Assembly (NCBI GenBank): GCA_018240025.1
Contig: JAFEGM010000062.1
Coordinates: forward strand, 11,907-75,906
Length of the DNA stretch: 64,000 bases
Source of the DNA: Verrucomicrobiota bacterium
GTDB taxonomy: Bacteria > Verrucomicrobiota > Verrucomicrobiia > Chthoniobacterales > SZAS-18
Direction of reading: 5' to 3'
Shown here: piece after piece, positions 24,290 through 49,467 of the stretch
Position numbering within the stretch: the first letter of the stretch is position 1
How the letters are laid out: each line of letters opens with the position of its first letter
Translations under genes and position numbers: made by a program
Notes under the pieces: model-generated
The model's database searches: none
The model's input: only the letters and a program-made list of their open reading frames with translations
What the model was told of the DNA's origin: nothing

Positions 24290-24372
24290 GGCTCACACAA
24301 AGACACAAAGTCACGAAGGATTGAAAGGGCTGCGGTGGTTCCGCTTCGTGCCTTTGTGCCTTCGTGTGAGCC
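24290..24372. repeat. Inverted pair of CRCRAAGN-triplet repeats (no gene between)
   Basis: The left arm 24290-24319 reads GGCTCA then CACAAAGA, CACAAAGT, CACGAAGG. The right arm 24344-24372, reversed, reads GGCTCA then CACGAAGG, CACAAAGG, CACGAAG. The arms match at 26 of 29 positions and enclose 24 nt. It is the same architecture as the arms around the GxxExxY gene (47647-48237), but with A at most of the R positions. It lies between der and the ECF sigma gene and could form a long hairpin. Confidence 0.8.
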
Positions 24373-47634: not shown

Positions 47635-47646
47635 TCAACCCGAGGA

Positions 47647-48237
47647 GGCTCGCGCGAAGCCGCGAAGCCGCGAAGGAGGGGGAAAAAGAGTTTAGGATTC
47701 CCCGTCTGGCGCTGGCGTTTAACTCTTCAGTTTGGGGAAGCGTGGTCTCGGTACAGCCTAAGCAGAGAGTTTTGGGTCTGAGTGTGCCGATTGACCACAC
47801 GCCGGACTCCCTGTTTGAACGTGGCAGCGCCAAAGTTGATGAGCAGGCCCAAGGGGAGATTAAGGAGTCGGAGGTAGGTGTTGACCTGTTTAAGATGCAC
47901 CGGTGCGATTTGTTCCACCGATTTTAACTCCACGACGAGTCGCGAGTTGACGAGGAGATCGACGCGGAAGGCATCTTCGATCAGGAGACCTGCCATGGTG
48001 AGAGGGACTTGCACCTGCCTCGTCACCTGCAGTCCCCGGTCAGAGAGCATTCGCTCCAACGTAAGTTCGTAAACGACCTCCAGCATACCGGGCCCGGCCT
48101 CGACATGAAGACGGAAAGCGCAGTCAACCACGATCGCAGACAGCTGTTTCTCATCCAGTTCATCAATCATAAGCTTAGATATCTCTCTTGTCGTATTTTG
48201 CAACCTTTCTTCGCGGCTTCGCGTCTTCGCGCGAGCC
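47647..48237. mobile_element. Putative minimal element: GxxExxY gene between inverted repeats
   Basis: The arms are 47647-47676 and 48208-48237 (30 nt each, inverse orientation): GGCTCG followed by CGCGAAGC, CGCGAAGC, CGCGAAGG on the left, and GGCTCG, CGCGAAGA, CGCGAAGC, CGCGAAGA on the right when reversed. They match at 28 of 30 positions. Between them is only the GxxExxY gene. GC content inside the gene is clearly below that of the neighbours. Related but gene-free arms occur at 24290-24372 and a single copy at 7616. No transposase and no obvious target-site duplication were seen by eye. Confidence 0.6.
47727..48170 (-). CDS. GxxExxY protein (PD-(D/E)XK nuclease-like)
   Basis: 147 residues. 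G28-xx-E31-xx-Y34 (GPGMLEVVYEL) names the family. The nuclease core continues with D71 in FRVDLLVNSR and E81-L-K83 in VVELKSVE, as in PD-(D/E)XK enzymes, and YLRLLNLPLGLLINFG follows. ATG at 48170 chosen because the family fold starts there; an in-frame TTG at 48203 lies 4 nt from the right inverted repeat. The tail NRHTQTQNSLLRLYRDHASP is not typical. Cellular role is unknown for the family; the repeat context suggests it acts on or moves with these repeats. Confidence 0.85.
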   Translation of the reverse strand: MIDELDEKQLSAIVVDCAFRLHVEAGPGMLEVVYELTLERMLSDRGLQVTRQVQVPLTMAGLLIEDAFRVDLLVNSRLVVELKSVEQIAPVHLKQVNTYLRLLNLPLGLLINFGAATFKQGVRRVVNRHTQTQNSLLRLYRDHASPN

Positions 48238-48322
48238 CCCTGCTTTCAATCCGGCACTGATGACACTTCTGGCGCGGAACTCGGGCTTGCTTCCCCGGCT
48301 GGCTCCCTCAGGGTTGTCGTTT

Positions 48323-49174: not shown

Positions 49175-49467
49175 TCCGGCCAGTCTCTCGCGGAATTAAT
49201 CCAGGCGGCCGAGGGGTCTCGGCCGCGCAACGCTGCCCGGAGGGAAGCGCGGCGGTGGGCTGGAAATCGCAGCGATTTCTTCACCACCGAAAACGCAGAA
49301 GGCTCAAAAAGCCCCGGCGCGAGCCTGTCGAAGCCATCACTCGCAATATCCGCCCCGCCGGTCCCCTCCTGTCTCGTTGAGTCGGTGCGTCCGCTCTCGA
49401 GTCTCCGATCTCCTGTCTCCTGTCTCCGATCTCCAGTCTCCAGTCTCCAGTCTGGCGCAGCACGCCG
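49175..49467. repeat. Gene-free repeat island after the receptor fragment
   Basis: There is no protein-coding gene here. A perfect hairpin GCGGCCGAG-GGGT-CTCGGCCGC lies at 49205-49226. A CACCACCGAAAACGCAGAAGG stretch near 49280 resembles the (A)CCAC-GAAxACxCxGAAGG repeats common in this phylum. At 49401-49454 a tandem array of GTCTCCA/GTCTCCT/GATCTCC units occurs, with about eight degenerate 6-8-bp periods. The three together suggest a place where short repeats accumulate after insertion or deletion. Confidence 0.6.

Follow-up and report, generated by a model that had tools for sequence, protein, structure and literature searches.

A GxxExxY nuclease gene between inverted tandem-unit arms: a candidate enzyme-repeat system resembling REP-RAYT

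The window analysed here, i.e. the whole 64-kb stretch of DNA from a Verrucomicrobiota genome, harbors a compact element in which a single gene on the minus strand, coding for a GxxExxY protein, lies between two inverted arms built of tandem units (Table 1). The arm cores are identical at 28 of 29 nt, and ungapped extension to 38 nt (47643-47680/48204-48241) leaves 89% identity. The first-pass annotation of this DNA had described near-identical inverted arms enclosing nothing but a GxxExxY gene, and this is indeed what we find, the gene product exceeding the cut-offs of both TIGR04256 (118.5 bits; cut-off 35) and PF13366 (122.2 bits; cut-off 22). The interval of 37 bp given there between arm end and ATG was accurate to within a base (38 bases from the inner end of the right arm at 48209 to the ATG at 48170), and the reduced GC content was confirmed as well, the values being 0.56 (element) and 0.54 (gene) versus 0.64 and 0.69 for the neighbors.

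Table 1. Coordinates of the element and of a related gene-less repeat pair in the window.
Feature	Position	Strand	Description
Left arm	47643..47680	+	Downstream of the GxxExxY gene; core GGCTCGCGCGAAGCCGCGAAGCCGCGAAG at 47647-47675; three 8-nt units CGCGAAGN
Right arm	48204..48241	-	Upstream of the GxxExxY gene; core GGCTCGCGCGAAGACGCGAAGCCGCGAAG at 48209-48237; inverted match to the left arm
GxxExxY gene	47727..48203	-	158 aa from TTG at 48203, 147 aa from ATG at 48170; PD-(D/E)XK nuclease
Gene-less inverted pair	24290..24372		Same family as the window arms; arms 24290-24318 and 24344-24372

The gene-less pair of Table 1, with units of the form CACRAAGN, a leader GGCTCACA and a 25-nt loop, is placed between der (minus strand) and a sigma-factor gene (plus strand). 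Exact CGCGAAGNCGCGAAG occurs in the 64-kb window only in the two arms; allowing three mismatches gave 47 matches versus 42 +/- 7 expected by chance, so that the non-random part is the exact, phased and inverted arrangement of the window arms. Searching the 6.3-Mb source genome for three consecutive CRCRAAG units with up to two mismatches yielded 93 matches (51 + 42), i.e. about 90 beyond the window arms, and 0 matches with the reversed-pattern control. The same genome encodes three further GxxExxY genes, each between its own, different inverted arms (CCGCAGATT...ACGCAGATTA; CCAAAAAGCCAAAAGGCTAGAG; GGCCTCAAAGAACTCAAAGAACACAAAA), of which no dispersed copies were seen in about 170 kb of source genome, a sample biased to the CGCGAAG type. 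A different repeat, composed of 7-nt GTCTCCN units (TCTCCTGTCTCCGATCTCCAGTCTCCAGTC...), occupies window positions 49388-49454 and recurs at dozens of similar places in the source genome; it may represent an arm that belongs to a further system.

Four residues of the GxxExxY protein (E42, D82, E92 and K94) are invariant in 62 relatives, in the layout E42, D82, E92-x-K94. The structure was predicted with a pLDDT of 93, and Foldseek returned Cas4 SSO0001, MGME1 and the alkaline and lambda exonucleases among the closest solved folds, at a best E-value of only 0.015; the predicted fold would thus be nearest to Cas4-like PD-(D/E)XK nucleases. TnsA was absent from the 50 listed Foldseek matches. Sequence comparison with the PDB gave no match, and a profile search with the window protein retrieved TIGR04256 and PF13366 only, and no HUH Y1 transposase.

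The association of arms and gene is not a peculiarity of this locus. In a phylum survey, 289 genomes were searched, 164 of which were GxxExxY-positive, and further loci were added, among them 80 named loci that were drawn from about 85,000 species genomes with a narrow alignment and represent one subfamily; a single narrow motif retrieved more than 570 GxxExxY loci from species genomes. Arms were called by score rather than by eye, based on local alignment of 450 bp upstream against the reverse complement of 450 bp downstream. At a score of at least 30, inverted arms flanked 85% of 197 GxxExxY genes with usable flanks versus 4.4% of 271 other genes at the same loci, the loci being mostly best-scoring family-profile matches, which may favor intact units. 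At a score of at least 38, the fractions were 70% and 1.8%. Random positions reached 1-4% at the lower threshold and 0-0.6% at the higher one, where the GxxExxY sets reach 66-78%. About 15% of the GxxExxY genes were armless by this test. Within seven genomes of the source family, inverted arms were evident at 18 of 20 GxxExxY genes. Both the arrangement and its generality are thus direct observations. Each arm is a tandem array of two to four units following the plan C-R-C-N-N-A-K, with a unit length of 8 or 9 nt at 127 of 156 loci, and in 130 of 131 cases the upstream arm has its units pointing toward the gene. According to record titles, arm-bearing loci are found in Verrucomicrobiota, Pseudomonadota, Desulfobacterota, Planctomycetota, Cyanobacteriota, Chloroflexota, Bacteroidota, Gemmatimonadota, SAR324, KSB1, Sumerlaeota and Armatimonadota. 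Matching inverted arms at many loci, as the first-pass annotation had proposed to look for, are therefore a reality, whereas one shared arm sequence (CRCRAAGN) everywhere is not, since each protein type has its own unit.

Some loci are arranged differently. Fourteen of the 197 GxxExxY genes (L101, L126, L124, L165, L197 and L236 among them) lie between long direct repeats of up to 370 bp which are themselves whole gene-less hairpins ('hairpins - gene - hairpins'), with a tandem array in L236. Such loci go beyond a simple terminal-repeat model and appear reminiscent of RAYTs beside REPIN clusters. Genome G057 (L144, L141, L147) has a pair of neighboring GxxExxY genes in the glnA-recG interval, and at another locus a decayed, 95%-identical copy (L144/L147) with an internal deletion of about 210 bp. 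The family is absent from sister species of this genus, and no empty glnA-recG site was available for comparison, the two genes not being neighbors in sister Akkermansia-like genomes.

The identity of the arm unit goes with the type of protein encoded between the arms. Proteins of the TEKIIGCAIEVHRxLGPGLLES type go with the unit CACAGAGNN or CACGAAGNN, SYxIIGACMEVHNELG proteins with CACGAATTN, YAIQGAVFEVYxEMG proteins with CACGAAANA, TEKIIxCxYxVYNKMGFG proteins with ACAGGATNN and xIVDxAxxxHxxLGPGLLESVYE proteins with CGCRNAGN. Across 14,679 pairs from different host families, arm similarity correlated with protein identity (Spearman 0.50, ancestry being only partly corrected for in this covariation as in the genome counts below), a value that none of 300 permutations reached (maximum 0.10). 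Arms of genes residing in one genome were no more alike than those of random pairs (0.29 vs 0.28), whereas similarity to the arms of the best-matching foreign protein amounted to 0.47 (39 wins, 19 losses, p = 0.012). The arm unit thus tracks the protein type, not the genome, across at least 10 phyla. By mutual information with the unit letters, the protein positions T128, D77/A78, T109 and R112 stood out; ancestry confounds this signal, and they are no more than leads to recognition residues.

Arms also depend on the gene at the level of whole genomes. Exact three-unit arms of the 8-nt or 9-nt pattern were present in 101 of 164 GxxExxY-positive but only 5 of 125 negative genomes (odds ratio 38, p = 4e-27), and, at the genus level, in 72 of 104 genera with versus 5 of 48 without the gene (p = 4e-12); shared ancestry inflates these p-values, yet the genus-level effect is still large. 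The five gene-negative, arm-bearing genomes are drafts in which the gene may have been overlooked. The converse picture of armless homologues, with arms equally common elsewhere, which the first-pass annotation had named as speaking against a link, is contradicted by this 38-fold genome odds ratio and by the 85% versus 4.4% at gene level. Exact arms add up to more than 600 copies per pattern, including those of the gene-carrying units themselves, which is far above two per gene. Sphingomonas genomes contain about 5-65 exact three-unit arms each, most of them in inverted pairs that lack a gene and are spaced by about 100-130 bp, while GxxExxY is single-copy in 9 of 12 of these genomes (up to 13 copies occur in other genomes). 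In two of three Sphingomonas genomes the commonest dispersed 23-mer equals the arm at the fab locus described below, the exception being S. albertensis (G314), whose own arm is not the dominant one. Most spacers of gene-less pairs show no relationship to one another or to the gene, and an Rfam search gave no match.

In most of 25 Sphingomonadales genomes an element is located between fabD and fabG, and in 9 of 12 examined this copy is the sole GxxExxY gene of the genome. The arm word at this site is CGCGGAG, CGCGAAG or CGCAGAG depending on the species, for example CGCGGAG in S. aquatilis and CGCGAAG in S. faeni, with both arms in agreement. On the GxxExxY tree, arm type changed three times, compared with a mean of 8.9 after shuffling (P < 0.001); on the FabD+FabG tree it changed eight times, with a mean of 8.8 after shuffling (P = 0.33). 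FabD/FabG are 97% identical between S. faeni and S. albertensis, in contrast to 69% for GxxExxY, and the two species have different arms, which means that gene and arms were replaced together; a second such joint replacement was found for L294/L302. Since arms and gene are linked at the fab site, a cassette swap alone would make them agree, a point that speaks against the enzyme-repeat reading given below. The gene itself is under purifying selection, as indicated by dN/dS values of 0.11-0.18. In S. canadensis (L301) the arms are kept with the gene mostly deleted internally, and two genomes (L309, L306) have no element between fabD and fabG. The Blastomonas gap (L306/L313) contains another inverted repeat, GAGCTTGTCGAAGGCC...GGCCTTCGACAGGCTCAGG, and in Sphingopyxis HIX (L303/L312) the fabD-side CGCAGAG arm has a second arm set (CGCGGAG) next to it, together with an insertion of about 2 kb.

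Gene-less units turn over fast, and the arms of a pair change in concert at orthologous sites. This was evident from direct sequence comparison of close relatives, which does not tell gain from loss. Comparing S. aquatilis with a relative of 95% identity, we found one unit to be missing, with about 8 bp left from stop codon to next gene; a second unit, of the CGCAGAG type, sits inside the loop of an older CGCGAAG hairpin, and a third has three repeats per arm in one of the species but two per arm in the other. In the pair S. faeni/S. albertensis, one site has retained its spacer with both arms switched between CGCGAAG and CGCGGAG, and two more sites carry different units. Empty sites in relatives, another point raised at the outset, hence exist in close Sphingomonas species as well as at fabD-fabG. 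Concentric nesting, with arm pairs of one word inside those of another, was seen among further Sphingomonas loci (L345-L384; e.g., L347, L350 and L366).

Some of these features are what one would expect if the arms were host regulatory or terminator hairpins, kept symmetric by palindrome correction, into which GxxExxY genes land or which they use for their expression: arms adjoin stop codons and fill short intergenic gaps, both arms change unit number together, and sister species have different elements at the same intergenic site. Matched arms can indeed stay identical by ordinary palindrome correction during replication without any enzyme. Such an origin leaves unexplained, however, why the unit matches the protein type across phyla, why arms are nearly confined to gene-positive genomes and why their orientation to the gene is constant, and we regard it as quite improbable.

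An unlikely, though somewhat better, candidate is a conventional transposon with the arms as terminal inverted repeats, GxxExxY as the transposase and the gene-less pairs as MITEs. Arms bound the unit at most loci, a near-identical second copy exists in G057 (L144/L147, 95%), the S. canadensis case (L301) looks like a gene-less derivative by internal deletion, and some repeats have homologous interiors. Against this, target duplications of 3-6 nt were not clearly more frequent at 156 loci than in shuffled pairs, and longer matches were rare (one or two loci); GxxExxY was found in 0 of 50,697 phage records and in 8 of 72,556 plasmid records, mostly large second replicons. Absent target duplication, absence from phages and rarity on plasmids argue that this is not an ordinary insertion sequence. 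Moreover, most Sphingomonas genomes have one old, vertically kept copy, most gene-less spacers are related neither to one another nor to the gene, and the arm sequence varies widely among loci of one genome. Four loci (L348, L351, L357 and L358) had been considered as recent copies of one gene-less unit; they turned out to be copies of an S. aquatilis MITE of 258 bp that has ends of its own (AGGACCGATCGACATTC) and such a hairpin as its interior, and they provide no evidence for arm-driven movement. Of the initial proposal of a minimal mobile or repeat-processing element akin to REP and its RAYT, the repeat-processing half fits best, while the self-transposing cassette does not hold up against the lack of target duplication, the absence from phages and a gene that is mostly single-copy and old in Sphingomonadales.

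A third alternative is that the nuclease polices hairpins, restraining or removing them or reading them as self/non-self marks in defence, without spreading them. The Cas4/RecB-like predicted fold would suit such a role, nested and truncated arms and the gene-less 8-bp site could be removal products, and the gene is chromosomal, vertically kept and under purifying selection. Yet arm copy number is higher, not lower, when the gene is present, and the gene sits inside the repeat pair, as expected of a repeat-dependent enzyme; we consider this the least probable of the three.

We infer instead, with a probability of about 0.7, that the GxxExxY gene and its arms form an enzyme-repeat system of the REP/RAYT kind that employs a non-homologous nuclease, which would bind and cleave the arms and drive their turnover. 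GxxExxY proteins would then be the cognate enzymes for a large class of repeats scattered through intergenic DNA, with two forms of unit: a complete one, in which the PD-(D/E)XK nuclease gene lies between two inverted tandem-unit arms, and a gene-less one of two arms and a short spacer that could fold into a long hairpin. The nuclease may recognize the tandem units, probably in single-stranded or hairpin form given that the nearest solved folds belong to Cas4, MGME1 and the RecB/lambda-exonuclease group, and may cut or trim at the arms. Subsequent repair, either with another unit as template or by switching templates across the hairpin, would seed arms at new intergenic sites, keep paired arms identical and rewrite arm types. 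The gene-carrying copy would be kept vertically while gene-less copies turn over, as for RAYTs and their REPINs. A bolder version, which we put forward tentatively and would not wager on, is that these nucleases write and rewrite hairpins, each lineage with its own 8-9-nt word, by seeding paired arms and converting existing ones. If true, repeats would here be edited by an enzyme-driven system that relies on neither transposases nor CRISPR; it would occur in at least 10 phyla, in one of them in roughly every second genome sampled, and would account for a large part of the tandem-unit hairpin DNA found in environmental bacteria.

The GxxExxY family is widespread, with members in 164 of the 289 genomes sampled in the phylum, and has no known role. 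Its link to its own repeats offers a testable substrate for the family and a candidate maker for unexplained intergenic repeats, and the matched protein/arm pairs constitute a natural set for reading a DNA-recognition code. In the open-access literature, we found no publication on the GxxExxY-arm system; searches with arm sequences returned chance matches only, two papers mention GxxExxY in passing, in one of them merely to label a gene beside a reverse transcriptase, and PF13366 appears in one paper. To our knowledge, no other system combines a PD-(D/E)XK nuclease with dispersed tandem-unit hairpins.

Partial likenesses to other known systems nevertheless exist. With MITEs and DDE transposons (Correia-type, IS630/Tc1-type) the units share shortness, lack of genes, terminal inverted repeats, dispersal and nesting, but differ in having neither target duplication nor a DDE enzyme, in internally tandem arms and in mostly unrelated spacers. 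Cas4, MGME1 and lambda exonuclease resemble the GxxExxY protein in predicted fold and catalytic layout, whereas the latter has only 158 aa, no cas genes beside it in the window and a tie to dispersed repeats. TnsA of Tn7 is a PD-(D/E)XK subunit, and the inverted ends of this transposon contain several repeated sites. GxxExxY units likewise pair such an enzyme with inverted ends of multiple sites; no TnsB/C partner, however, was noted at annotated GxxExxY loci.

The closest parallel is REP-RAYT. There, the enzyme gene lies between inverted repeats, repeat and protein co-vary, repeat abundance follows the gene, gene-less inverted doublets with a spacer form intergenic hairpins without target duplication, and the enzyme is absent from plasmids, often single-copy and vertically inherited (PMC2817692, PMC3116915, PMC8049555). 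Most of this has its counterpart here: the GxxExxY gene lies between two inverted repeats (at 85% of 197 genes, against 4.4% for controls), arm unit and protein vary together, arm abundance follows the enzyme, and gene-less inverted hairpin doublets occur without target duplication. In copy number the match is partial, with a single gene in 9 of 12 Sphingomonas genomes and near-absence from plasmids, but up to 13 copies elsewhere and cassette swaps at the fab site. The differences concern the enzyme, a PD-(D/E)XK nuclease (TIGR04256) rather than an HUH Y1 (TnpA-REP) transposase, and the repeat, where a GT(A/G)G-headed palindrome is replaced by tandem 8-9-nt units; our arm tables contain no common GTRG head, the arms beginning with AACC, TCACGC or GGCTCRC. 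Furthermore, the GxxExxY unit varies between loci of one genome, Verrucomicrobia-like genomes with several genes having different arm types. Two unrelated enzymes, an HUH transposase and a PD-(D/E)XK nuclease, would then have converged on one arrangement, one enzyme with scattered hairpins. Because the enzyme is not of the RAYT type and no other known system matches, we class the GxxExxY system as a new kind; if kinds are defined by logic and not by homology, it could equally be listed as a REP-RAYT variant. By this analogy, the GxxExxY system appears to work like REP-RAYT without belonging to it, using an unrelated enzyme and a different repeat architecture.
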